Source: a virus | IMG/VR virus record: IMGVR_UViG_3300032053_000548 | Coordinates: 1-23,085 of that record | Reading direction: 5' to 3' (one strand) | DNA length: 23,085 nt | In this document: positions 1,319 through 22,971 of the stretch, in pieces | How positions within the stretch are numbered: position 1 is the first letter of the stretch | How the letters are laid out: the number at the start of each line of letters is the position of its first letter | Translations under genes and position numbers: made by a program | The notes under the pieces: generated by a model | What the model saw: only the letters and a program-made list of their open reading frames with translations | Database searches by the model: none | What the model was told of the DNA's origin: nothing

Positions 1319-4300
1319 ATGGCATTTCCGTCTAAAGACCTTACCGATCAAATTTTGAAAAGCATTGCAACTGATATCCGTGTTCAAATTCTTGTCGGTA
1401 ACAAAGCATTACAAGACATGGTATTTGACGAAGTAACAAAACGAGTAATAGAAAAAAGTAATGCTGATTTTAATACTGAATTCCAAAAATATCTGGACGA
1501 ATTAGAAGCCGCCGGTACATTTAATCCTCCTGTAGTACCTCCGGTACCACCTGTAGTACCTCCTGTGCCTCCTCCCGGTGGTCCTCCTCCCGCTCCTCCC
1601 GGTGGCCCTCCTGCTCCACCTCCCGGTGGACCTCCGGGGACTCCTCCTCCCGGTGGTCCACTTCCACCCCCTCCCGGCGGCGGGGGTGGGTGGGAAAATG
1701 AACTAAAAAATGAATTGCTGCAATTACAATTAGCTTCCTCTTCTGCGGTTGACGGTGTACATCAATGGGCAACCAATCTTAATAATGTTACTGCTGCCGA
1801 CAGAAGAATTGTTGATTTAGTAAGCGCACTTTCATCTGCTGCATGGGGGTTGGCAAATGATCTTCCTACAACAGAGCAAGAATTTCTTTCGTTCAAAGGT
1901 GCCATAGGAACTATAAACGAATCTCTTTCAAGTATTGTTCAACAAATTGAAATGGGAAATACTGAATTCGTTGCTACCGGGCTTTCGTTGGAAAATCTCC
2001 GAACTCAATTACAAAACACAAGACATATTATAGATGCTGCTGTTGTAGATCGGCAATCAGCGCAAGTAGTTGTAAATCAACTTGGGGGCGAACGTGCAAC
2101 CGCCCGCGAGGAACGATTAGAAGAATTGGTGCAGGCGGCCCGCGGGGCTGGTGGAAGGTTTATCGCACTTCCTCCCGCAGAGAGACGAGAGCAAGCCAAT
2201 CTCCGTGCGGAGCAAATTGCGTTTGATAATGCCACAAATTCTGTTCAAAAATTAACTAGAGAAATTGGTTTTAATGTAAATAATTTTCAGGCACTTAATA
2301 AAGTAATTACATCAGTAGCCAGAACAGCGATGATTGCAGAACATGAACACAATACCAATATGGGTAAGTTTATACCGGGGTATTCAAAAACTGCAAATAC
2401 AGTGAAAGATATGAATACTATATTGGCCGACAAAGGTATTCCTTTATACACTAAGTTTCTAGGAGGAATTTTGATGGCAGTTGATGGACTTGGGAAATTG
2501 TCAACTGCGCTACTTACTGCAATTCAAACTGTATATGCATTTGGTAAACAAAATGCAATGCCATTTAACCAAATTGCTAAGTTTTGGCTGGAAAGTATTA
2601 AAGCTTCGTGGGATTCTATTGGAAGTTTATATAGTTTTACAGATAAAGATTACAGAGAAACCGTTCAAGCCGAACAAGCCTCTGTTGGTGGTAGGTTGGC
2701 TCCGGCAGAAACTGCAACATATGTTACTCAAGCAACCAGAATGGGAGTTGATTCCGGAGACTTATTCCGTACTGCATGGCAATCATATGGATTATTAGGC
2801 CGATCACTTGATTCTTCGCGGGATGGAGTTATTAAAATTATTGATCAATTCAAATCTCTTGGTATCGTAGGTCCAAAAGCACTTGAATACATGAAAAATA
2901 ATGCACAATTAATAGCAATTTATGGTGATCGGTTCTATGGAAAAATTGCAGACTCTGCAGTTAAGTTTACTAAAATGGGCGTTGACTTACAGAACTTTAG
3001 AATGTTGGCAGAAAATATAGTTCTTGATTTTGGTTCGTTCATTGACAAGACAGCCGAACTCGGCGCAACAATCCCCGGATTGCAGTTAGATGTTATTGGA
3101 TTAACTCAAACATCTATGATGGAAGGTCCAATTGCGTTAGCAGATGAATTGCAAAGACAATTACAAGCATCAGGAAAAGATTTTTCTGAACTTCCATATT
3201 TTCAGCAAATAGCATTAAAACAGGCATTTAGTTTAGATGAAGCTACAATTGCTAAACTTACAGGAGAACCATTAGAAGATATTCCCTTATCAACTCTTGA
3301 AATTGACAAATCAAGTAATGGATTTCTTGCGAACATATTACAGTGGCTAATTGATAATGGATCAAGATTTACTGGTTTATTTAGTATTTTTTCTATGGTT
3401 GCCGATGCCATCGGATCTATTGCATCTACTCTAGTGGGAATATGGGGATTGTTTAAACTCGGTAGTATTGTTAAGGGAATAGCGGCGCTACGTACCGGTG
3501 CAAGTGTTGTGGGTGCAGCAGAAGTAGCGGGTGCAGCGGGTGCAGCAGAAGTAGCGGGTGCAGCGGGCGCAGCAGAAGTAGCGGGTGCAGCGGGCGCAGC
3601 GGGTGCGGCTGCTCGTGGGGGGATTGGGTGGAAAACTGGGGTCGGCAGGATAGGGATGGGTCTTGGATTTGGAGTAGCAGCCTTGGGTGCTGGTGCGCTT
3701 GAAGATCAACAAAGAGAAGAAGGTAATATAAAAACTGCTAACGCGGCTGGTATAGCTAAATCTGCACTGACGGGTGCTGCGTGGGGAGGATCGATGTTCG
3801 GCTTGCCGGGAGCAGCGGTGGGTGGAACAGCGGGAGCGTTGATTGGAGTACAAAGAGAACTCGATCCTACCAACAAAATAGGACAAGAAAATTATAATAG
3901 GGCAATGACTAGTCATACTCAAGGTGGTGCTATTAGTGAAGCAATCCGAGCTATAATTACATTATTCGGCGGCAAATCTAGGTCTGTACCACAATCACAA
4001 TCTGGGCAACCATTACCTACATCTGCTCGTCAAGCATCTATTTTTGATACAGTTATGACAAGTCCAATTAATACAAAAGTTCAACAATTACCAGAACTAG
4101 TGGTTACTGCCACTCGTCCCCTTATTCCTCCTGAAATAAAGGTGGTATCACCACCTGTTATTTATCATGATACATTGCCGCAAGATACTCGTCCTATAAA
4201 TCCGTATACAGGAAAAAGAATAGATGTTGATAGTACGGGAAAACCAATTGCACTCTTGGATTTTTCACCGGTCATATTAGAAATAAAAAATCTCAATGCA

Positions 4301-4405
4301 AGTATTAAGCAAATGCAGTTTAATGTTGATGTGAATTTAGATGGCAGAAGAGTTGGAACCGGTTTAGCATCGTTGGGTGCTGGATATGCTGCGCATAATA
4401 TATAA
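1319..4405 (+). CDS. tape-measure-like tail protein
   Basis: A 1028-residue protein with the layout expected of a tape measure protein: a short N-terminal domain (1-68), a Pro/Gly linker (70-124), long helix-rich Gln/Ala/Glu stretches (about 125-660), hydrophobic segments able to enter a membrane (about 667-745 and 765-790), an Ala/Gly tandem repeat (733-759), and a C-terminal end with NVDVNLDGRRVGTGLA, typical of tape measure tails. In T4 this role belongs to gp29 (590 residues): it sits inside the tail tube, sets its length, and is ejected ahead of DNA. The Pro-rich linker is unusual. Residues 913-932 are encoded by a segment repeated exactly at the start of the gene at 6447. The ATG lies 2 bases after the previous stop with only a weak Shine-Dalgarno, suggesting coupled translation. 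A lytic or other structural role is not excluded. Confidence 0.68.
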   Translation: MAFPSKDLTDQILKSIATDIRVQILVGNKALQDMVFDEVTKRVIEKSNADFNTEFQKYLDELEAAGTFNPPVVPPVPPVVPPVPPPGGPPPAPPGGPPAPPPGGPPGTPPPGGPLPPPPGGGGGWENELKNELLQLQLASSSAVDGVHQWATNLNNVTAADRRIVDLVSALSSAAWGLANDLPTTEQEFLSFKGAIGTINESLSSIVQQIEMGNTEFVATGLSLENLRTQLQNTRHIIDAAVVDRQSAQVVVNQLGGERATAREERLEELVQAARGAGGRFIALPPAERREQANLRAEQIAFDNATNSVQKLTREIGFNVNNFQALNKVITSVARTAMIAEHEHNTNMGKFIPGYSKTANTVKDMNTILADKGIPLYTKFLGGILMAVDGLGKLSTALLTAIQTVYAFGKQNAMPFNQIAKFWLESIKASWDSIGSLYSFTDKDYRETVQAEQASVGGRLAPAETATYVTQATRMGVDSGDLFRTAWQSYGLLGRSLDSSRDGVIKIIDQFKSLGIVGPKALEYMKNNAQLIAIYGDRFYGKIADSAVKFTKMGVDLQNFRMLAENIVLDFGSFIDKTAELGATIPGLQLDVIGLTQTSMMEGPIALADELQRQLQASGKDFSELPYFQQIALKQAFSLDEATIAKLTGEPLEDIPLSTLEIDKSSNGFLANILQWLIDNGSRFTGLFSIFSMVADAIGSIASTLVGIWGLFKLGSIVKGIAALRTGASVVGAAEVAGAAGAAEVAGAAGAAEVAGAAGAAGAAARGGIGWKTGVGRIGMGLGFGVAALGAGALEDQQREEGNIKTANAAGIAKSALTGAAWGGSMFGLPGAAVGGTAGALIGVQRELDPTNKIGQENYNRAMTSHTQGGAISEAIRAIITLFGGKSRSVPQSQSGQPLPTSARQASIFDTVMTSPINTKVQQLPELVVTATRPLIPPEIKVVSPPVIYHDTLPQDTRPINPYTGKRIDVDSTGKPIALLDFSPVILEIKNLNASIKQMQFNVDVNLDGRRVGTGLASLGAGYAAHNI
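1526..1690 (+). other. proline/glycine-rich linker in the tape-measure-like protein
   Basis: Residues 70-124 are almost only Pro, Gly, Val and Ala: first PPVVPPVPP-type units, then PPPGGPP-type units, ending in five Gly. The DNA is locally GC-rich and built of cct/ccc/ggt codons, unlike the AT-rich flanks, which suggests growth by repeat slippage. Such a stretch would form an extended polyproline chain separating the N-terminal domain from the helical body. Confidence 0.85.
3515..3595 (+). repeat. three tandem 27-bp units (AAEVAGAAG) in the tape-measure-like gene
   Basis: Three head-to-tail 27-bp units encode AAEVAGAAG three times (residues 733-759). They differ by a single third-position change (ggt/ggc) and are followed by a partial unit (AAGAAARGG). 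Near-identity at DNA level points to recent duplication. The segment lies between two hydrophobic regions of the protein. Confidence 0.9.
4054..4114 (+). repeat. 61-bp direct repeat, copy 1 (inside tape-measure-like gene)
   Basis: These 61 bases recur without mismatch at 6446-6506. Here they encode residues 913-932 of the tape-measure-like protein, with the core QQLPELVVTAT. Identity begins at the base before an ATG codon and ends after the second Thr codon; the flanking bases differ. Confidence 0.97.
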
Positions 4406-4419
4406 GGAAATGATCATAT

Positions 4420-6174
4420 ATGGCCTATGAAACATTATTAAATAAATTTCTTGAAAATGAAACTTATTTGTATGGAAAAAATCCACTAACAGGCGACGAA
4501 AAAATTGGATGGTATGTAGAAATCCGCCCCGGTTCTACCGCATTACTACAAGGTGGTGATCCTTTTCTAGATACCCGTTCAATTCCAGTTGTATCTGGAG
4601 CCAGAGATGTTAAACGCATTACTAGATTTTTATTTTCTGGTAAGGGACTGCTATTTTTAGGAAAGCAAGCACTCCTGCAAACAGGTAACACCTTCGGTCA
4701 GACGCGATTACTTAATCCATTATTTGTGGCCAAACAACTCATTCCGTTTACGCACTCCCCGCGCCATGCATCTAATATTCCACTTATTATTTCCTTGGTT
4801 AGTAAAACCCTCGGAGCCAAGCCACCGGGAGGACTAGATTCAAACAGATTACAAAAAGAAACTGTTACTAACATTAGAACATTGGTTAGATCTAAAACAG
4901 CTATTCCAACCAAAGCAAAATTATCATTTTCTAATATCATTGATACTATCACATCACCATTCAAAGCACTTACAAGTGTCATTGGTGGTGCTACCATCAA
5001 TGCAAACGAACGGCCAGAAATTAAGTATCAAGGCTTTTTAGATTATATTGATATAGAACGCATTCGAATTATGGGATCGGAATTTCCAAGAACTCCATCA
5101 TTTAGTATTAATCCAAAAACTGATCCAATAGTTAAACAATCGCAAGATACTAGATATTTCGTATCAGCGGCGGCGAAATACACTATAGAAAAAGTAAGAA
5201 AATTAACTACATTTGAATTTACTGGACTTCCTACTAGACCAGAACTCTCACCTTCTCAATTTGCATTCATTCCTAATTTTGGTAATATTCCTGTTCCCGG
5301 AACTAATAAAATTGATAATGTAGAACAAACATTGACAGATTTGAACAGTTCGTTTCAAAAACAATTAACAAAGTACATATATGATCCAAAATCATTTGTT
5401 GGCCCCGGATCACCAACAAAATCAATAACAGTTGCTCGTTCTACTCAAATGAATAAAAATAAATTGAAATACAATGTTGATACCATTGCACCAACTGATA
5501 TTCTCAACAAACAAATTTTTGCAACTATTGAGCAGCCAGACTATATTATATTTACCTTCGAAGCAGCCGGGAAGAAAGTACAACTTCGTTCATTTATTGT
5601 TGATTTTGGAACTACAGTTGAAGCGGAATATACAGAAGATAGATATGTTGGTCGGTATGAAAAATTTCTTACATATATTGGTGTAAATCGTAAAATTGAT
5701 TTGTCATTTTATTTGATACCTCATAATTCAAATGAAGTAGATGTAGTGTGGGGTAAATTGGATTGGTTAACTCGTCTTGCATACCCCACTGGTATTCAAT
5801 CTTCAGGATATTTTGAACCACCACTTACTAAACTTACAGTTGGTAGAGTTTTTGATCGGTTGCCAGTATTTGTTAAAAATATATCGTGGAAATTAGAAGA
5901 TACGAGCACATGGGATATTGATAAAGAAGTGCCATTATATATTAAGGTAAACATGCAAATTTCAATTATAGAATCTGCATTGAATACGCTGCAACGCGGG
6001 GCATTATACGAAATAGTTAAAAATCCTGTTTTTATAGGAAGGAAAACACCAACAGTAAAAACTACTACATATGTTGAACCGAAATTGCGACCGGCACCAA
6101 GTACATTCCCCGTGCCCAATCCCATAATTCCGTCTCGTTCCGAACCGCCAGATCTTTTGGGTATAGGAGGATAA
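4420..6174 (+). CDS. baseplate/tail-tube initiator-like protein (gp48/gp54 type)
   Basis: A 584-residue protein without signal peptide or cysteine-rich motifs. The C-terminal third (about 375-530) resembles the tail-tube-cap/initiator proteins of contractile tails: a beta-rich stretch with FTVEAEYTEDRYVGRYEKFLTY-like order, where a region on distorted tube-like strands is followed by NRKIDLSFYLIPHNSNEV, WGKLDWLTRLAYP and LTVGRVFDRLPVFVKNISW, then a segment ending in VNMQISIIES. In T4, gp48 and gp54 sit on the hub and start tube polymerisation; their genes follow the tape measure gene, as here. The last 60 residues are Pro-rich and probably extended. An AAGGAA sequence precedes the ATG, and the gene ends 2 bases before the next start. 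The N-terminal half is not recognised. Assignment rests on pattern and gene order, not on a strong motif. Confidence 0.55.
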   Translation: MAYETLLNKFLENETYLYGKNPLTGDEKIGWYVEIRPGSTALLQGGDPFLDTRSIPVVSGARDVKRITRFLFSGKGLLFLGKQALLQTGNTFGQTRLLNPLFVAKQLIPFTHSPRHASNIPLIISLVSKTLGAKPPGGLDSNRLQKETVTNIRTLVRSKTAIPTKAKLSFSNIIDTITSPFKALTSVIGGATINANERPEIKYQGFLDYIDIERIRIMGSEFPRTPSFSINPKTDPIVKQSQDTRYFVSAAAKYTIEKVRKLTTFEFTGLPTRPELSPSQFAFIPNFGNIPVPGTNKIDNVEQTLTDLNSSFQKQLTKYIYDPKSFVGPGSPTKSITVARSTQMNKNKLKYNVDTIAPTDILNKQIFATIEQPDYIIFTFEAAGKKVQLRSFIVDFGTTVEAEYTEDRYVGRYEKFLTYIGVNRKIDLSFYLIPHNSNEVDVVWGKLDWLTRLAYPTGIQSSGYFEPPLTKLTVGRVFDRLPVFVKNISWKLEDTSTWDIDKEVPLYIKVNMQISIIESALNTLQRGALYEIVKNPVFIGRKTPTVKTTTYVEPKLRPAPSTFPVPNPIIPSRSEPPDLLGIGG

Positions 6175-6176
6175 TC

Positions 6177-6443
6177 ATGGATCGTAAAGTAGTATTTAAA
6201 GTTGGCAAAACAATAGCAGGGGTTCCATATTATCTTACTGGTAAATTGCCCGATGTTAAAGTAACCGACACCGATCAAACATATAATGGCCGCATGGGTG
6301 AACGACTTGATTACATTTCCAATAAAGTATATGGAAAACCAGTATACTGGTGGATTATTGCAAAAGCAAATGGTATTACTAATGGAGCGTTTTCTTTAAA
6401 CGAACCCCAAATACTCAAAATTCCAAAACTTTCATTATTTTAA
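6177..6443 (+). CDS. short LysM-like baseplate protein (gp53/gpX type)
   Basis: An 88-residue protein with the pattern GERLDYISNKVYGKPVYWW followed by IIAKANGI and a C-terminal ILKIPKLSLF. This is the phage LysM-like module (R-L-D-x-I-x-x-x-x-Y-G-x-x-x-x-WW-x-I-A-x-A-N) found in T4 gp53 and in the tail protein X of P2-like phages. It acts in baseplate assembly, joining wedge or sheath to the hub, rather than in wall digestion. A strong Shine-Dalgarno (GGAGG) lies about 8 bases before the ATG, within the last codons of the previous gene. The stop is 3 bases before the next start, so the three baseplate genes are probably translated together. Confidence 0.75.
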   Translation: MDRKVVFKVGKTIAGVPYYLTGKLPDVKVTDTDQTYNGRMGERLDYISNKVYGKPVYWWIIAKANGITNGAFSLNEPQILKIPKLSLF

Positions 6444-6445
6444 TA

Positions 6446-6506
6446 TATGACAAGTCCAATTAATACAAAAGTTCAACAATTACCAGAACTAGTGGTTACT
6501 GCCACT
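6446..6506 (+). repeat. 61-bp direct repeat, copy 2 (start of hub-like gene)
   Basis: Exact copy of 4054-4114. The ATG at 6447 is the start codon of the large hub-like gene, so the repeat supplies its first 20 residues. Recombination between the two copies would remove 2392 bp and join the tape-measure-like frame to the hub-like frame without a frameshift. Confidence 0.97.
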
Positions 6507-9500
6507 AATAAAAAGGGAAATTTTTTCTTTGACCCATTTTATCCAGAAGTCATTGAGGAATTGAATCGTAGAAAATCATCTGCCAATCTTGCCCGAACTT
6601 ATATGCCATTCGCTCGGCTAACAACTTCAATAGAATTGCCGGACAATAAAGGACGCTTTTTTACTGTTGGATTGCACGGATTTGATAATTCCGAAATTGA
6701 GAGTATTTATGAGCCTGTTGATGGGGGAACTTTATTGGGGTATACATATAAGAATGAAAAAAAAATTCCACTCTATACATCAGATATTCCCGCATTAGTT
6801 TCTAGTAATTCGGATGGTACCATTCCCTCGGGGGCAGATACCGCTGGAAGAGAATTTTTAGAGACTGAAAATATAATTCAACGAGAAGTTAAAAAATTTC
6901 CTCCCCCCGGAATTACAAATGTTAAAATACGCCGAGCCGGTATCGCGGGGTCATTATTACAAGCAGATGTAGAAATTGCAGTTAATACACTGGGGCAATT
7001 ACAGGCATTACAAGAATATCTTTTTATTCCGGGGGTTAATATTATTCTGGAATGGGGAAGAGTCGCGAGTGGCGATGATCCCAATTCGCTTCTTAACTCG
7101 GCATTAAATTTTAATAAAGGTGCCGACATTGAATTTTTAAAATCATTGGTAGCAAATAAAAAAAATAGACGGCATGTATTCCAAAATTATGTTAAACATA
7201 CTAACTGCAATTATGATTTTATGGTTGGGAAAGTAAGTAATTTTTCATTTGCAATGAAAGGTTCTAAATATATTACTACAGTAAGAATTAGTTCTACTGG
7301 AGATTTGATTTCATCATTGGCTAATACAGAAACTTCATTACCTCCCACCGAAGATGGAAAGGGTGATGTATATTTAACTGCTATTAATGAATATTTTACA
7401 GAACAAAATTTTGAATTAAAATTACAACAAGACGAACAAGATTCACGGTTTAAACGGCATGTATATTTATTGAAAGCTCCTTCTAAAACGGCGGAAGCAA
7501 CAAATCAGGCAATTAAAGAGGCGGTCGCGGGCGACCAGCCAGCCGGAGATATATTTGGAACAAATGTTGGTGGGTTTTATATTTCGTGGGCATATTTTGT
7601 CAATGAAATTTTACATGGTACAACTGATGCGGGCGGGAGTCTCAAAGAACATATAGTACAACGCGGGCGTTGTGATACTTGGTATAATTATCCTCAATTA
7701 GAAAAAATTGTTGCTGCAGATAAGAATCAAATTGCGTGGGTAGATGGCCCGGTAGATGATCCTGACGAAAAACCTATTGGATGCCATTTATTTTTGCGAT
7801 CTATTGATCCTTCGGTTATGGTTATTTTTAACCAAACTCGCCAAACAAACTTGCCATATGATACATTTGAACAAGCTCTAACTACTGAAGTAAAACGGTG
7901 CATAAACAGGAACCCCGGAGCGACTACCGGTGACGACATGAAACGAGCATATGAAACATTTAAATCATATGGTCATTTTGAAGATGCATTGGGCAATTTC
8001 GGAAAATTGTCACGAGGAGTGTGGATTAATCATCATGTTATCAGTCGGGCATTTATAAATAACCCAACGTTTCACGCTGCGCTTTCTCAAATTTTACGAG
8101 CAATGTCCGCAGCTACTGGAAATTTTTGGAATTTACAATTGCATTTGAATGAAGCTTCTTCTAAATTAAACATGGAAAAACCAGAAATAAAAGTATATGG
8201 ACCGCCGACTCTTCCTGCTATAAGTGAGGGTGTAAATTCTTCAGATGACGCAAGTACCACATTTACTATTATTGATGTGCACACAACTGATAGTTTGGCT
8301 GCCGCAAAGGAATTGATTGAAACAGCTAAACGGAATAAAATCTACATGTTCAACCGTAGATTGAATTCCAATGATATCAATAAAACTGACTATACAGTAA
8401 GTGAGGGAACTAGCTTGGGATCGGGGGGAGGCGAATTAATATCATTGGAAGCAGATTTTTCGCTTCCAAGTATTTTGGCATCTCAAATCGCAGTACAGGG
8501 TATTAGAGGTCCGGGTGATTCCGGATATTTTGGTATAATTGGATCTTCTACTGGATTTCAAACTGGAGCCATGTTTGAAACTACTATAATAGATATTTTA
8601 AAACCTCCTACTACTCAAACTGCACAACGGGATGGTATGAACGAAGAGGATGCGTATAGCGTTCCTATTGGGGCAGCGGGAAGAATAATTAGATTGCACG
8701 CTGCTGGAAAAGGCGGAGAAGATGTAAAAATAAATGAAATTAAGATTAGTATCGGTGGTAATAAAAAAACTGGTTTGAAACCTCTCGAATATACATTGGG
8801 AATGGATGTTCTAATCGCGATGGCTGTTGCAAAATCGACCGGCAATACAGTCTTAATTGATAGGCTTAATGAATTTGCACTGAACCAGAACAAATACGAC
8901 AATATTCCAAACGGGGAGTACACTCGAAGGGTAAAGCTTCAAGCTCTATTCAAAACTACTCTCGCTGGTGCTGTTGGGCTATCGTCTACAGTGGGTGACG
9001 AAGCGACAAATGGAGTTATATCAGAATTAGGATATGATAAATCTATTTCATCAAACATGCGGGCCAAACTTTCCGAGGCTTTAACCCCTCCCGGTGCTCT
9101 GGATAATAGACCACCAGTGGCCATGCAGGCATTGTTATTAACTTTGCTGCAGACTAATAATGCTGCGTTTGAAAAAACTGTTAATGAGGCATTAGATAAT
9201 TTGGAGAAAAACAAGACTGATAGCACTAATCCAGTAACTGCTTTTACTAGATTATTACACATTGCGGCGGCGAAATACAATACAGCGGCTGACGGTAGAC
9301 CCAATGATATGGTAGAGTCTATTTTTACCACCAACACTCCTCTTATACAAAGAGAAATTTTAGATTCTCAAAAAGCAGATGCCCAACTAGGAGCAATAAT
9401 TGAAAGATACAAAAATTATGGTACATTTATAGAATTTATAGAACTTATACCAAGTTATATGTCTCGTAGAGCACGGTCATGGGCATTGGCAGATGCAAAA

Positions 9501-9809
9501 CTTCGTGATAAGAGGGTGGGCACAAATTTATTATCTCCGGCACCAACTCGATTGCATATAAAAATAAGCCTGCCCGGAATTTCTAGTATTCATATTGGAG
9601 ATCTTTTTTGGGTAGATCGAATACAACCAAATTTGTATTTGGATGGATTGTTTACTACTATCGGATTGAGTGAATCAATAACTCCTTCAAAGGGATGGGT
9701 TACCAGTATCGAAGGTGTATTTTTGTTCTTGGGAAGATTTCATTTTGCCGAAGTATTTCAAGGTATACAACCATCTCCGGATTCTATTACACGACCAATT
9801 GGAGAATAA
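6447..9809 (+). CDS. very large baseplate hub-like protein
   Basis: A 1120-residue protein. The first 20 residues are identical to an internal segment of the tape-measure-like protein. Then come mixed beta/alpha regions with hub-like patterns such as ADVEIAVNTLGQLQALQEYLF and GVNIILEWGRV (about 170-205). The C-terminal part (about 1030-1095) has the order LHIKISLPGISSIHIGDLF, DRIQPNLYLDGLF, then GWVTSIEGVF, which fits the hub fold of contractile tails (T4 gp27 / P2 gpD type). Such hubs form the trimeric centre under the tail tube and carry the membrane-piercing spike. I see no lysozyme motif, so this protein probably lacks T4 gp5-like wall-degrading activity. No Shine-Dalgarno is visible before the ATG, which lies 3 bases after the previous stop; coupled translation is likely. 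At 1120 residues it is about three times T4 gp27. Confidence 0.55.
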   Translation: MTSPINTKVQQLPELVVTATNKKGNFFFDPFYPEVIEELNRRKSSANLARTYMPFARLTTSIELPDNKGRFFTVGLHGFDNSEIESIYEPVDGGTLLGYTYKNEKKIPLYTSDIPALVSSNSDGTIPSGADTAGREFLETENIIQREVKKFPPPGITNVKIRRAGIAGSLLQADVEIAVNTLGQLQALQEYLFIPGVNIILEWGRVASGDDPNSLLNSALNFNKGADIEFLKSLVANKKNRRHVFQNYVKHTNCNYDFMVGKVSNFSFAMKGSKYITTVRISSTGDLISSLANTETSLPPTEDGKGDVYLTAINEYFTEQNFELKLQQDEQDSRFKRHVYLLKAPSKTAEATNQAIKEAVAGDQPAGDIFGTNVGGFYISWAYFVNEILHGTTDAGGSLKEHIVQRGRCDTWYNYPQLEKIVAADKNQIAWVDGPVDDPDEKPIGCHLFLRSIDPSVMVIFNQTRQTNLPYDTFEQALTTEVKRCINRNPGATTGDDMKRAYETFKSYGHFEDALGNFGKLSRGVWINHHVISRAFINNPTFHAALSQILRAMSAATGNFWNLQLHLNEASSKLNMEKPEIKVYGPPTLPAISEGVNSSDDASTTFTIIDVHTTDSLAAAKELIETAKRNKIYMFNRRLNSNDINKTDYTVSEGTSLGSGGGELISLEADFSLPSILASQIAVQGIRGPGDSGYFGIIGSSTGFQTGAMFETTIIDILKPPTTQTAQRDGMNEEDAYSVPIGAAGRIIRLHAAGKGGEDVKINEIKISIGGNKKTGLKPLEYTLGMDVLIAMAVAKSTGNTVLIDRLNEFALNQNKYDNIPNGEYTRRVKLQALFKTTLAGAVGLSSTVGDEATNGVISELGYDKSISSNMRAKLSEALTPPGALDNRPPVAMQALLLTLLQTNNAAFEKTVNEALDNLEKNKTDSTNPVTAFTRLLHIAAAKYNTAADGRPNDMVESIFTTNTPLIQREILDSQKADAQLGAIIERYKNYGTFIEFIELIPSYMSRRARSWALADAKLRDKRVGTNLLSPAPTRLHIKISLPGISSIHIGDLFWVDRIQPNLYLDGLFTTIGLSESITPSKGWVTSIEGVFLFLGRFHFAEVFQGIQPSPDSITRPIGE

Positions 9810-18919: not shown

Positions 18920-21499
18920 ATGAACACAGCAGATGATATTCTCAGTTCAATAACGATTTTTATGAAGTACGCCAAGCATTTAGATTCCAAAAATAGACGA
19001 GAAAACTGGAAAGAGATTATAGATAGAAATAAATTTATGCATATTAGTAAATTTCCAGAATTATCCCAAGAAATAGAAGATGCTTATAAATTCGTGTATG
19101 ACAAAAAAATACTTCCTTCAATGCGAGCTATTGAAGATTCCACTCCAATTTTAACAATTAATGGATGGACAACGGTGGGAAAAATTGTCCCGGGAGATAT
19201 AATATACGATTCTCGGGGGAAGCCCACGACAGTTTTACGAGTAAAACACTTCACAGATAAAAATCTCTATAATATACAATTTACGAACGGGGCATCAATA
19301 GTGGCGTGTGATGAACATCTTTGGATTGTGTCTACCGAAGATGACCGAAGAGAAAATAAAACTCGGGTAGTTGATACCCAATATATCAAAACACATCTTG
19401 CACAGGGTGATAAAAACAATATAAGTATTCGAAATACTCTTCCGCTTGAATTTGAACAGAAATTATATGTAATTGATCCATATATTTTAGGAGTGTGGCT
19501 AGGAGATGGGTTTTCCAACGGAACTCAATTTGCAGTTAATGCTGGAAGTGACGCAGAATATATGAAGGCTGTGTATGAACATGCCGGATATTCGGTACGA
19601 AAGGCCGGTGCAAAAAATATCTATGCATGGAATGTTGTTGGATTAAAGCCAGCATTGAATGAATGCAAATTAATAAAAAACAAGCACATTCCTGAAGAAT
19701 ATTTATTTGGAAACAGTGAACAGAGAATTGCTTTGTTGGCGGGATTAATGGATACTGATGGCCACATCACACTTAGTGGTAGATGTTTATTCACCAATAC
19801 CAATATTCGCATCATTGACGGAGTGAAATTTATTCTTTCGTCGTTGGGGATTAAGTATACCACTGGAATTCCTAGACAAAAAATGTCACATCATAAATTG
19901 CTGTACACCATTTCATTTTTTACAGATTTACCAGTGGTTCGTATGCCGCGAAAATTAAAAAATCTTCGTACCCCAACCATTAGAAATCAGTTTCGTAAAA
20001 TAGATGATGTCACACCAGTTGGAATTGGAAATGCGTCATGTTTTATTGTTAACTCCCCAGATAACAGTTTTCTTGTTGGGTCAGAATTAATAGTGACTCA
20101 TAATTCATTGCAATTCGCGGGAAAGCCCACAGAGATTAACAATACCAGAATATATAATTGTAGTTTTATGCCGATGGATCATTACGCCGCATTTAGTGAA
20201 TTAATGTTCCTTTTATTATCTGGTACCGGTGTAGGATATTCGGTCCAGCAGCATCATGTGGAAAAGCTACCCGAAATCACCCGTCCAACCAAAACAAAAC
20301 GATATTTGGTAGGCGATTCCATTGAAGGGTGGTCCGATGCAGTCAAGATGCTTGTCAAAGCATATTTTACTGGGAAAGCTGCCCCCGCGTTTGATTTCAG
20401 TGATATTCGTCCCAAAGGTGCCCGTTTGATTACTGCGGGTGGTAAAGCTCCGGGGCCAGAACCGCTCAAGGACGGACTTCACAGTATTCAGAAAATTTTT
20501 GACCGAAAACAATCTGGTGATAAGCTAACTACTTTAGAAGTGCATGATATCTGTTGTTATATTGCCGGTGCTGTTTTGTCTGGTGGTATTCGTCGTTCGG
20601 CCATGATTGCGTTGTTTGACTTGGACGATGATGATATGTTAACTTGTAAGTTTGGTCCGGGGTGGGACGAATTAAATCCCCAACGACACCGTGCGAACAA
20701 TTCGGCTGTCATTCTTCGTCATAAGATTGATAAAGAAGTGTTCTTTGATTTGTGGAAGAAACTGGAAGCTGGTGGTACTGGTGAACCGGGACTCTTCTTC
20801 ACCAATGACAAAGAATGGGGATTAAATCCCTGTGCAGAGATTTCACTTCGGGCATTTCAATTTTGTAATTTGGTAACAATCAATACAACAAACTTAAAAG
20901 ACCAAGAAGATTTGAATGCTCGGGCAGAAGCAGCCGCATTTGTCGCCACCCTTCAAGCAAGCTATACTAATTTTCATTATTTGAGGGATATATGGAAAAA
21001 GACCACGGAGAAGGAAGCATTAATTGGAGTGAGCATGACTGGTATTGCATCTGGTGCAGTGCTAAAATTGAGTATGAAGGACGCAGCACATGCTGTGAAA
21101 GAGGAAAACGAGAGAGTTGCAAAACTAATTGGGATCAACTCAGCAGCGAGATGTACTACGGTAAAACCAGAAGGTTGTTTAACACTAGATACTGTAATTA
21201 GGACAACAGATGGTAATAAAACAATGGCAGAGCTTATATCTCTTCTCACCGACGAAAATGTATTTGAAGTTGGAAGTGGTGTGTGGATAGAACCAAAATC
21301 AGATGTGTTTGTATATAATGAAAACGACGATGCCGAAAAAATTACTAAATTATATGTTAATGGAATGTCGGAAGTATATGAAATAACAATGGAAGATGGA
21401 TTTGTAGCCAAATTAACATCTGAACATAGATTAAAAACTACTACCGGATGGAAACGAGTCAAAGATTTGAACAAGGACGACGAGATTATTGGATATTAG
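18920..21499 (+). CDS. nrdJ: class II ribonucleotide reductase, N-terminal part, with a cis intein and a split-intein N half
   Basis: An 859-residue precursor. Extein residues 1-69 and 396-752 form the first two thirds of a monomeric B12-dependent (class II) ribonucleotide reductase, which makes deoxyribonucleotides. Seen are ILPSMR joining SLQFAGKP across the cis intein, IYNCSFMP with a redox Cys, LLSGTGVGYSVQ, IRRSAMIALFDLDDDD, and the active site NPCAEISL with Asn636, radical Cys638 and Glu640; Cys649, eleven residues on, fits the second redox Cys (C408/C419 in Lactobacillus leichmannii). Residues 70-395 are a cis intein. Residues 753-859 are the N half of a second, split intein interrupting KPEG/TTSL, and the gene ends there with TAG-TAG. 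AACGAGGAAA precedes the ATG. Active enzyme needs the product of the gene at 21552. Confidence 0.9.
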   Translation: MNTADDILSSITIFMKYAKHLDSKNRRENWKEIIDRNKFMHISKFPELSQEIEDAYKFVYDKKILPSMRAIEDSTPILTINGWTTVGKIVPGDIIYDSRGKPTTVLRVKHFTDKNLYNIQFTNGASIVACDEHLWIVSTEDDRRENKTRVVDTQYIKTHLAQGDKNNISIRNTLPLEFEQKLYVIDPYILGVWLGDGFSNGTQFAVNAGSDAEYMKAVYEHAGYSVRKAGAKNIYAWNVVGLKPALNECKLIKNKHIPEEYLFGNSEQRIALLAGLMDTDGHITLSGRCLFTNTNIRIIDGVKFILSSLGIKYTTGIPRQKMSHHKLLYTISFFTDLPVVRMPRKLKNLRTPTIRNQFRKIDDVTPVGIGNASCFIVNSPDNSFLVGSELIVTHNSLQFAGKPTEINNTRIYNCSFMPMDHYAAFSELMFLLLSGTGVGYSVQQHHVEKLPEITRPTKTKRYLVGDSIEGWSDAVKMLVKAYFTGKAAPAFDFSDIRPKGARLITAGGKAPGPEPLKDGLHSIQKIFDRKQSGDKLTTLEVHDICCYIAGAVLSGGIRRSAMIALFDLDDDDMLTCKFGPGWDELNPQRHRANNSAVILRHKIDKEVFFDLWKKLEAGGTGEPGLFFTNDKEWGLNPCAEISLRAFQFCNLVTINTTNLKDQEDLNARAEAAAFVATLQASYTNFHYLRDIWKKTTEKEALIGVSMTGIASGAVLKLSMKDAAHAVKEENERVAKLIGINSAARCTTVKPEGCLTLDTVIRTTDGNKTMAELISLLTDENVFEVGSGVWIEPKSDVFVYNENDDAEKITKLYVNGMSEVYEITMEDGFVAKLTSEHRLKTTTGWKRVKDLNKDDEIIGY
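19127..20104 (+). mobile_element. class 3-type cis intein with LAGLIDADG endonuclease domain
   Basis: A 326-residue insert between Arg69 and Ser396 of the reductase precursor. It begins with Ala and ends VTHN, followed by Ser. Ala at position 1 cannot start a class 1 reaction. The triad of class 3 inteins is present: Trp135 in block B (CDEHLW), Cys374 in block F (ASCFIV) and Thr393 beside the penultimate His394 (intein positions 66, 305 and 324). The block F Cys would attack the N-terminal junction. Two endonuclease motifs, ILGVWLGDG (189-197) and LLAGLMDTDG (272-281), keep their Asp residues, so homing activity is plausible. Insertion interrupts the conserved SMR/SLQF reductase motif. The frame is intact across both junctions. 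Confidence 0.88.
21176..21496 (+). mobile_element. split intein, N-terminal half
   Basis: 107 residues starting with Cys753 directly after KPEG. Block A is CLTLDTVIRTTDGNKTMAELI-like, and block B has the TxxH motif as TSEH (Thr833, His836). The end LNKDDEIIGY is acidic, complementing the basic start of the C half. Cys1 and the TxxH motif indicate a class 1 intein. No endonuclease motif is present. Two tandem TAG codons end the frame. Confidence 0.9.
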
Positions 21500-21551
21500 T
21501 AGAATGTATGTTTTGTTAAACCCGTGAGCGGAAGAACTTTGGAGAAGTAGA

Positions 21552-21656
21552 ATGAAGATTAAATCAATTAAAAAATTTCCACCTCAATTTACGGTGGACA
21601 TAGAAACTCAAAATACACACACATATCAGTTGGGAAATAAAGTAGTATCGCATAAT
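21552..21656 (+). mobile_element. split intein, C-terminal half
   Basis: 35 residues beginning MKIKSIKK (basic, suited to pair with the acidic N half), with block F around FTVDIETQ (Asp16 at the position that is Cys in class 3 inteins) and block G VVSHN, penultimate His34 and final Asn35. The next residue, Thr36, is the +1 nucleophile. The lengths (107 + 35) are those of endonuclease-free split inteins. Confidence 0.92.
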
Positions 21657-22238
21657 ACTACATCATTGGTCCTCGGCACATCATCTGGCGTACATGCGTG
21701 GCATAATGATTATTATGTTCGGCGGCTTCGGGTGGACAAGAATGAAGCTATTTATCAATATCTGGCAGAAACCATCCCTGACATGTTAGAAGATGAATTC
21801 TTCCGCCCCAATCAACAAGCTGTTATCAGTATTCCTGTTAAAGCACCTGATGGTGCGGTAACTCGCCAAGAATCTGCGTTGGATCTCTTGAATCGGGTTA
21901 GTAAAGTCTGGAAAGAGTGGGTGAAACCCGGACACAGAAAGGGTGCAAATAAGAACAATGTATCCACCACGGTCAATGTTCGTGATAACGAGTGGGAGAT
22001 AGTGCGGGATTGGATGTGGGAAAATCGTGAGAATTTCACTGCACTGAGTTGTTTCCCGACCGATAATAATAATTATGTTCAACCTCCCTTTCAAGACATT
22101 ACTAAAGAAGAATATGAGGAAATGAGTAAACACTTACATAAAATCAATCTCAATAAAGTTGTTGAAGTGGAAGACAAAACCACTTTAAATGAAGAGGTTG
22201 CCTGTGGTGGTGGTGGTGGTGGGTGTGAAGTGAGGTAA
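21552..22238 (+). CDS. nrdJ: class II ribonucleotide reductase, C-terminal part, with split-intein C half
   Basis: A 228-residue protein whose first 35 residues are intein and remaining 193 are reductase. The extein resumes as TTSLVLGTSSGVHAWH, which joins KPEG from the first gene to rebuild the substrate-binding KPEGTTSL loop of class II reductases. Then YVRRLRVDKNE and KNNVSTTVNVRDNEW follow. The C-terminal tail has two Cys, Cys218 and Cys225, six Gly apart, matching the mobile redox tail that is re-reduced by thioredoxin. GGAGAAG lies about 5 bases before the ATG, so the gene has its own ribosome binding site. It is in a different frame from the upstream gene, 52 bases after its stop, so the break is not a simple frameshift. 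Mature enzyme after splicing: 69 + 357 + 193 = 619 residues. Confidence 0.9.
   Translation: MKIKSIKKFPPQFTVDIETQNTHTYQLGNKVVSHNTTSLVLGTSSGVHAWHNDYYVRRLRVDKNEAIYQYLAETIPDMLEDEFFRPNQQAVISIPVKAPDGAVTRQESALDLLNRVSKVWKEWVKPGHRKGANKNNVSTTVNVRDNEWEIVRDWMWENRENFTALSCFPTDNNNYVQPPFQDITKEEYEEMSKHLHKINLNKVVEVEDKTTLNEEVACGGGGGGCEVR
22206..22223 (+). repeat. GGT trinucleotide run between the redox cysteines
   Basis: Five GGT codons and one GGG encode six Gly between Cys218 and Cys225 of the reductase C-terminal part. The run of identical codons suggests length change by slippage. Confidence 0.85.
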
Positions 22239-22281: not shown

Positions 22282-22971
22282 ATGTCTTATATATACACCA
22301 TTACCAATACTGAAAATGGGAAATTTTATGTGGGAAAATCAATTAAATTATTTCGGCGTTGGTGGGAACATCTTTATATGGCAAATACAAAAAATAATAG
22401 ACACCCACTATATGATTCTATTAGAAAATATGGAATCGACAAATTTAAATTTGATGTAATAGAAGAATGTACAGATGATATTCTTAATGAAAGAGAAATT
22501 TATTGGATAGCCAAACTGACCCCACCGTACAATCTAACAATCGGTGGCACTGGTGGAGATACATTTTCTAAACGAACGAATGCTTCTAAAGAAATTACAA
22601 GGAAAAAATTATCTGAACATGCCAACCGATTGTGGAACAACAAAAGTTACCGGGAATTAATAACAGAAAAAGCAATAAAAAATGCACAAAATCCAGAATA
22701 TATTAAACGAGTATCTGTTGGTGTTAAAAAAGCTATTGAAAATAAAAAGGACATCTGGAGTGAGTGTAAGCGGGGTAAGAAAAATGGTCGGTGGCTAGGA
22801 TATATTGAAATGTATACTCCAGACGGAAGACTATACAAACGATACGAAACCGCTGTGGATTGTTATCATGACACTGGATTATCTAAGCATCTGATACGAA
22901 GAAAAGCAGAGACAGGAGCGTGTATGGAACGAGGATATTTTAAAAACTACACTTTTAAATTGGTCAAATGA
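22282..22971 (+). CDS. free-standing GIY-YIG homing endonuclease
   Basis: A 229-residue protein. The nuclease domain is at the N-terminus: YIYTITN and KFYVGKS (GIY-YIG core, residues 3-20), Arg25/Arg26, then NEREIYWI with the metal-binding Glu (about residue 73), and PPYNLTIGGTGGD. The middle part is Lys-rich with SKEITRKKLSEHA, a NUMOD3-like DNA-binding motif, and KNGRWLGY. The end TAVDCYHDTGLSKHLIRRKAETG fits an intron-encoded-nuclease repeat (IENR1/NUMOD1). Such enzymes cut an unoccupied allele and copy themselves by recombination. It lies 43 bases after the reductase C-terminal part, behind AAGGAGAA, and is not inside an intron or intein that I can see. Its target may be the neighbouring reductase or intein sites. 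Confidence 0.88.
   Translation: MSYIYTITNTENGKFYVGKSIKLFRRWWEHLYMANTKNNRHPLYDSIRKYGIDKFKFDVIEECTDDILNEREIYWIAKLTPPYNLTIGGTGGDTFSKRTNASKEITRKKLSEHANRLWNNKSYRELITEKAIKNAQNPEYIKRVSVGVKKAIENKKDIWSECKRGKKNGRWLGYIEMYTPDGRLYKRYETAVDCYHDTGLSKHLIRRKAETGACMERGYFKNYTFKLVK

Follow-up and report, generated by a model that had tools for sequence, protein, structure and literature searches.

How is a single ribonucleotide reductase made from two genes that together hold two inteins of different splicing chemistry? The question is raised by the nrdJ locus of IMG/VR virus record IMGVR_UViG_3300032053_000548, which we analysed over its whole length (23,085 bp, hereafter the window). A first-pass annotation of this DNA had proposed that a class II reductase is interrupted here by a class 3 cis intein with a LAGLIDADG domain and by a class 1 split intein. 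In our analysis it is very probable that class 3 cis splicing and class 1 trans splicing together rebuild a 619-residue, adenosylcobalamin-dependent enzyme of the RTPR type from the two genes; that both reactions occur, that both are needed, their order and the activity of the product are what we infer from the sequence.

The reductase and its reading frames

The locus is made up of the following parts.

18920-21499, forward strand: N-terminal nrdJ gene, a single open frame of 859 amino acids (E1, class 3 intein, E2, IntN)
18920-19126, forward strand: E1, N-extein 1, 69 amino acids, with PSMR at its C-terminal end
19127-20104, forward strand: intein 1, the class 3 cis intein, 326 amino acids, running from A to THN with S following, with a LAGLIDADG homing endonuclease domain
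19478-19957, forward strand: approximate extent of the LAGLIDADG endonuclease domain (PF14528, E=3.2e-6; PI-SceI match, intein residues 118-257)
20105-21175, forward strand: E2, central extein, 357 amino acids, with Cys88, Cys312 and Cys323 (spliced-protein numbering)
21176-21496, forward strand: IntN, N-half of the class 1 split intein, 107 amino acids, with Cys1 and block B TSEH
21497-21551, forward strand: stop and spacer between the split-intein genes, with three in-frame TAG and a GGAG before the next ATG
21552-22238, forward strand: C-terminal nrdJ gene, 228 amino acids (IntC, E3)
21552-21656, forward strand: IntC, C-half of the class 1 split intein, 35 amino acids, with an SHN end and Thr at +1
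21657-22235, forward strand: E3, C-extein, 193 amino acids, with the thiol pair Cys609/Cys616 (spliced-protein numbering)

On translation, the frames, lengths and junction residues claimed by the first-pass annotation proved correct to the base, and the joined exteins give the 619 residues that it had predicted (69+357+193). The product of the N-terminal gene matches the RTPR family TIGR02505 (E=6e-51), phrog_367 (E=8.5e-78) and the intein_Nterm family TIGR01445 (E=2.4e-7), and that of the C-terminal gene matches RTPR from its residue 36 onwards (E=7.7e-13) and phrog_367 (E=3.6e-27); PF21995 is matched by the nrdJ proteins as well. The TIGR02505 score lies under the whole-protein cut-off because the protein is both split and divergent. 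Since the pieces match TIGR02505 and phrog_367, the spliced enzyme is predicted to be a monomeric-type class II reductase of the RTPR type. The G+C content of E1 (18920-19126) is 29.5%, compared to 43% for E2 and E3.

All five catalytic cysteines are present, which together with the family matches bears out the class II assignment. Cys119, 408, 419, 731 and 736 of RTPR (PDB ID: 1l1l) align with extein residues 88, 312, 323, 609 and 616, where RTPR positions were read by counting on an alignment of the intein-free homologue L002 (one of the viral contigs that we label with an L) with the Lactobacillus enzyme. Neither precursor alone holds all five, because the C-terminal pair is encoded by the second gene. 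Intein 1 sits between the equivalents of Arg99 and Asn100 in 1l1l, with the Cys119 equivalent 20 residues on, and the split intein between those of Gly551 and Thr552, in the KPSG loop. By this alignment both inserts lie near catalytic residues, as homing inteins typically do.

If the inteins are removed as proposed, homologues that lack them should run on across both junctions (SMR-SLQF and KPEG-TTSL), a test that the first-pass annotation had set for itself. Scanning viral contigs with E2 gave 61 NrdJ relatives, 48-80% identical per extein segment. E1 and E2 are contiguous and free of any insert in 61 of 61, with PSMR followed by S in 60 and by Ala in one; E2 and E3 are likewise contiguous and insert-free in all 58 homologues where the junction is present, with KP(E/S/A)G followed by T. 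The continuity of the extein thus stands at both sites.

A locus with two inteins and an adjacent GIY-YIG gene could also be a decaying reductase gene that has been crowded out by mobile elements and makes no active enzyme, and nrdA genes of Campylobacter phages have been described as degenerating through inteins (PMC3653736). This is very unlikely here, however, as the three extein segments are intact, the five catalytic cysteines are kept, the only frameshift is the natural split and the splicing residues of both inteins are intact.

A class 3 cis intein and a class 1 split intein

Class 3 inteins are defined by a WCT (Trp, Cys, Thr) triad, with the Cys at motif C2:4, and by the absence of an N-terminal nucleophile (PMC7891396, PMC7664689). 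Intein 1 begins with Ala1, has neither Cys nor Ser at position 1, and ends in THN before Ser+1. Its residues W66, C305, T324, H325 and N326 are invariant across 11 aligned phage class 3 inteins, and its WCT residues align with those of the class 3 crystal structures that are its best PDB sequence matches (PDB IDs: 6rix; 6bs8). The AlphaFold2 model (pLDDT 89.9, pTM 0.89) has a predicted HINT fold, with Asn326 at its end and Ser+1 beyond, as expected of class 3; Foldseek matches it to PI-SceI over both splicing and endonuclease domains (TMq 0.81) and to class 3 DnaB inteins over the splicing domain (TMt about 0.8). The acidic residues of the LAGLIDADG domain, D127 (LGDG) and D211 (MDTDG), are intact in the alignment. 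Triad, Ala1, structure matches and PF14528 together uphold the description of a class 3 cis intein with a LAGLIDADG domain, and splicing through a branched intermediate at the block F Cys is predicted. Assignment to class 2 was rejected, as the block F Cys and the WCT triad are present.

The same site (PSMR, then S) is also filled in three other contigs: L066, whose intein is 52% identical to intein 1, L169 and L170. The L169 intein shows Asn at both acidic positions (LGNG, MDTNG) and keeps the WCT triad, as would be expected if splicing were maintained after the ability to home was lost. Its nrdJ is an open frame of 1617 amino acids on the reverse strand of L169 with three cis inteins: the class 3 one at PSMR/S, one of Ser1 type at NP/C and one of Cys1 type with a Gln end at QM/C. 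In isolated phages the nearest relatives of intein 1 are terminase inteins, about 33-36% identical, and most related loci lie in P-loops (GK...HN, then S/T); it is a reasonable inference that such an intein moved into a reductase. Contig L063 encodes a DnaB-like helicase (4928-7366) whose intein is class 3-like, with 27% identity to intein 1; in this phage the class 3 and split class 1 types thus reside in separate proteins.

The split intein has Cys1, the block B motif TSEH (TxxH), a terminal SHN and Thr+1, as class 1 inteins do, and its catalytic residues are kept in all aligned relatives. Its two halves are separate genes, broken at the usual point of endonuclease insertion, and a contiguous relative in L070 aligns with them end to end; Cys1, TSEH, SHN/T and the two genes support the claim of a canonical class 1 split intein. 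The insertion site is not that of NrdJ-1, an identity that we rejected because NrdJ-1 lies at NPC/SEI.

Both genes have ribosome-binding sites, the C-terminal one with GGAG before its ATG. Over the 55 nucleotides from the stop of the N-terminal gene to that ATG, the frame of the former reads tandem TAG TAG and then another TAG, and the two open reading frames lie in different frames. No single sequencing indel would fuse them, given this frame offset and the three in-frame TAG, and since many contigs are split in the same way we rejected a sequencing error as the origin of the split. Amber read-through was rejected too, because the read-through frame hits a TAA a few codons into the C-terminal gene, out of its register; nor can recoding of TAG be argued, as TAG ends just one of the 18 genes of the window (the N-terminal nrdJ gene), which is too few. 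No group I intron in the window matched Rfam at the gathering threshold. The whole arrangement is known from a single metagenomic record of 23,085 bp, and an assembly error that merged two strains, or a sequencing artefact behind the split, might be suspected. We regard this as highly improbable: a frame offset and three in-frame stops separate the genes, a ribosome-binding site lies in the gap, dozens of contigs are split at the same residue, and the class 3 site is likewise filled in L066, L169 and L170.

A maturation pathway can be proposed from these parts. In the 859-residue N precursor, Cys305 would attack the Arg69-Ala bond, the acyl group would pass to Ser+1 and Asn326 would cyclise, so that MR-SLQF is joined and the 326-residue intein leaves in cis. 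IntN of this precursor would pair with IntC of the 228-residue C precursor, and the class 1 split intein (Cys1, Thr+1, Asn35) would link KPEG to TTSL. The cis and trans reactions could run in either order, with no required order evident, and the product would be a continuous, monomeric, adenosylcobalamin-dependent reductase of 619 residues.

Some points weigh against this reading. The C-terminal cysteine motif of the window is C(G)6C, compared to CxxxxC in RTPR and CGGGGC in L002, and the swinging-arm pair may thus behave differently. Moreover, NrdA of Aeromonas phage Aeh1 works as a split protein without splicing (PMC3653736), and since split phage reductases of this type can work, trans splicing is not strictly required for activity. 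The chains encoded here could similarly form a working reductase non-covalently, with the intein halves as relics, as in NrdA-a/NrdA-b of Aeh1, a published phage reductase that functions as two chains without a self-splicing element (PMC3653736); the insertion loop, where the two chains meet, also adjoins the active site. Relics would decay, however, whereas both halves of this intein retain their full length and every catalytic residue, and dozens of contigs have the same split intein at the same site, which makes the non-covalent alternative a slim prospect next to covalent joining by splicing.

The split-intein family and the neighbouring genes

Relatives of the split intein at its own site were found first by IntN and then by a degenerate DNA pattern for IntC. 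IntN is 41-57% identical to the IntN of other phage NrdJ proteins at the same KPxG/C junction. The IntC motif occurs in 70 other viral contigs, several of them near-duplicates and so not all independent, of which 51 are split, 6 are contiguous and 13 have no N-half in the stretch covered. A search of isolated phages gave no close relative (best 32%), and one of prokaryote genomes none that was confirmed. The KPxG/T family is far larger than the literature examined describes.

Where the spacing between halves was measured (49 split cases), 15 gaps are short (17-235 nucleotides) and 34 exceed 600 nucleotides; the long gaps examined have HNH or GIY-YIG genes inside. In L117, which belongs to the NrdJ lineage of the window, all that separates the IntN stop from IntC is the C-terminal tail of an endonuclease gene, an apparent intermediate in endonuclease loss. 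In L070 (709-1155) a contiguous mini-intein at KPSG/T retains the start Met of IntC after a five-residue linker, possibly as a pre-split or re-fused form; its model, made for L070 and not for the two chains of the window, has a HINT fold (pLDDT 93.3) with NpuDnaE as nearest structure. By comparison with these forms, the short gap in the window would be what was left after the loss of an endonuclease gene.

The split intein has also apparently moved between reductases. Compared to L063, IntN is 57% and IntC 68-69% identical and the exteins just 30-38%, a difference that points to transfer between NrdJ lineages. Two split inteins per nrdJ occur in L064 (2683-6773) and L076 (3084-7440), where three extein-bearing genes must join into one enzyme.

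A further endonuclease gene lies directly downstream of nrdJ in the window and resembles intron endonucleases.

22282-22971, forward strand: free-standing GIY-YIG homing endonuclease gene (PF01541, E=1.7e-11; TIGR01453, E=2.3e-29)

As many relatives carry endonuclease genes between the intein halves, including a GIY-YIG gene in L071, this gene might serve the split intein as its homing endonuclease (collaborative homing) and have been relocated from a place between the halves to its present one downstream. We think this unlikely, since the one close relative that was found, 52% identical, follows directly after an nrdJ without inteins in L026. As that relative spreads without the intein, the GIY-YIG gene is most probably a mobile gene in its own right that settled behind nrdJ. 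Upstream of nrdJ the window encodes a baseplate hub protein, a gp32-like DNA-binding protein, a RecA-like recombinase, a 5'-3' exonuclease and a DnaB-like helicase. It is apparently part of a tailed phage genome. Two of its open reading frames, 1319-4405 (near the C-terminus) and 6447-9809 (at the N-terminus), share the 20-residue MTSPINTKVQQLPELVVTAT.

The pairing among known systems

Phage NrdJ proteins that combine a cis with a split intein are not rare among environmental contigs: the combination also occurs in L067/L069, L072, L074, L106, L109, L124, L131, L136, L137, L139 and L153. Every cis intein read in these starts with Cys, however, and the PSMR site is empty in all split-bearing loci where it can be read; conversely, the KPxG/T site is empty in L066 and L169, where the class 3 site is filled, and L170 does not reach it. 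The pairing that had been called unusual is so in its class 3 component: a class 3 cis and a class 1 split intein share one NrdJ in the window alone within this sample, which consists of sequences matching the search patterns used and is no proof of uniqueness. The elements are known, and it is their combination that was not found in the other records examined. One protein, Trichodesmium DnaE, was reportedly found by Liu and Yang in 2003 to undergo both cis and trans splicing; to our knowledge its inteins are all class 1.

Several of these loci are crowded. L067/L069 have a cis intein at NP/C with HNH. L072 has one at YN/C beside its split intein, and two group I introns by Rfam (2085-2454 and 4891-5113), the second within nrdJ. 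The nrdJ of one phage (L074, 1-5025) holds four inteins, three split and one cis: a split one at ILM/C with only its C-half on the contig, an NrdJ-1-like split one at NPC/SEI with a nuclease-like gene between its halves, a cis one at QF/C...Q/CNL, and a split one at KPSG/T with an HNH-like gene between its halves. Inteins thus crowd into phage NrdJ to an unusual degree, as many as four to a gene.

Whether the window encodes the first protein known to need class 3 cis and class 1 trans splicing for its maturation, and one that belongs to a widespread, largely undescribed KPxG/T family preserving contiguous, endonuclease-carrying, remnant and bare-split stages, we judge an evenly balanced question. 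If it does, two dissimilar autocatalytic chemistries operate in one precursor, where class 3 and class 1 splicing could be compared natively, down to whether either gates the other. Of greater weight than the pairing is the wider family: dozens of its natural split inteins, all with Thr+1 and so far uncharacterised, could serve as ligation tools, and its series of contiguous forms, forms split with an endonuclease, forms split with a remnant and bare split forms bears on how split inteins arise.

Environmental split inteins were reported in seven nrdA and two nrdJ genes by Dassa 2009, as relayed in PMC3653736. Among the closest described systems is NrdJ-1 (PMC13123727), also a class 1 intein that is split in nature and interrupts the class II reductase of an environmental phage, with native NPC/SEI flanks and Ser+1, whereas the intein of the window lies about 110 residues further along at KPEG/T and has Thr+1; NrdJ-1-like split inteins occur at the site of NrdJ-1 itself in L074 and L076. 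For intein 1 the counterparts are the class 3 inteins of phage terminases and MchDnaB1/MsmDnaB1 (PDB IDs: 6rix; 6bs8), which share with it Ala or Val as first residue, the WCT triad and the THN end, and in the case of the terminases also the LAGLIDADG domain, but which lie mostly in P-loops (GK...HN, then S/T) and not in a reductase at PSMR/S. AceL NrdHF (PMC7891396) is comparable: it too is a class 3 intein with Ala1, it interrupts what is probably a phage reductase, and a GIY-YIG gene takes part. In AceL NrdHF it is the class 3 intein that is split, within a class Ib beta subunit, whereas in the window the class 3 intein is cis, a second, class 1 intein is split, and the enzyme is class II. 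Trichodesmium DnaE, for which PMC5874633 cites Liu and Yang, shares with the proposed reductase that one protein matures by cis and trans splicing, but is a cellular DNA polymerase.

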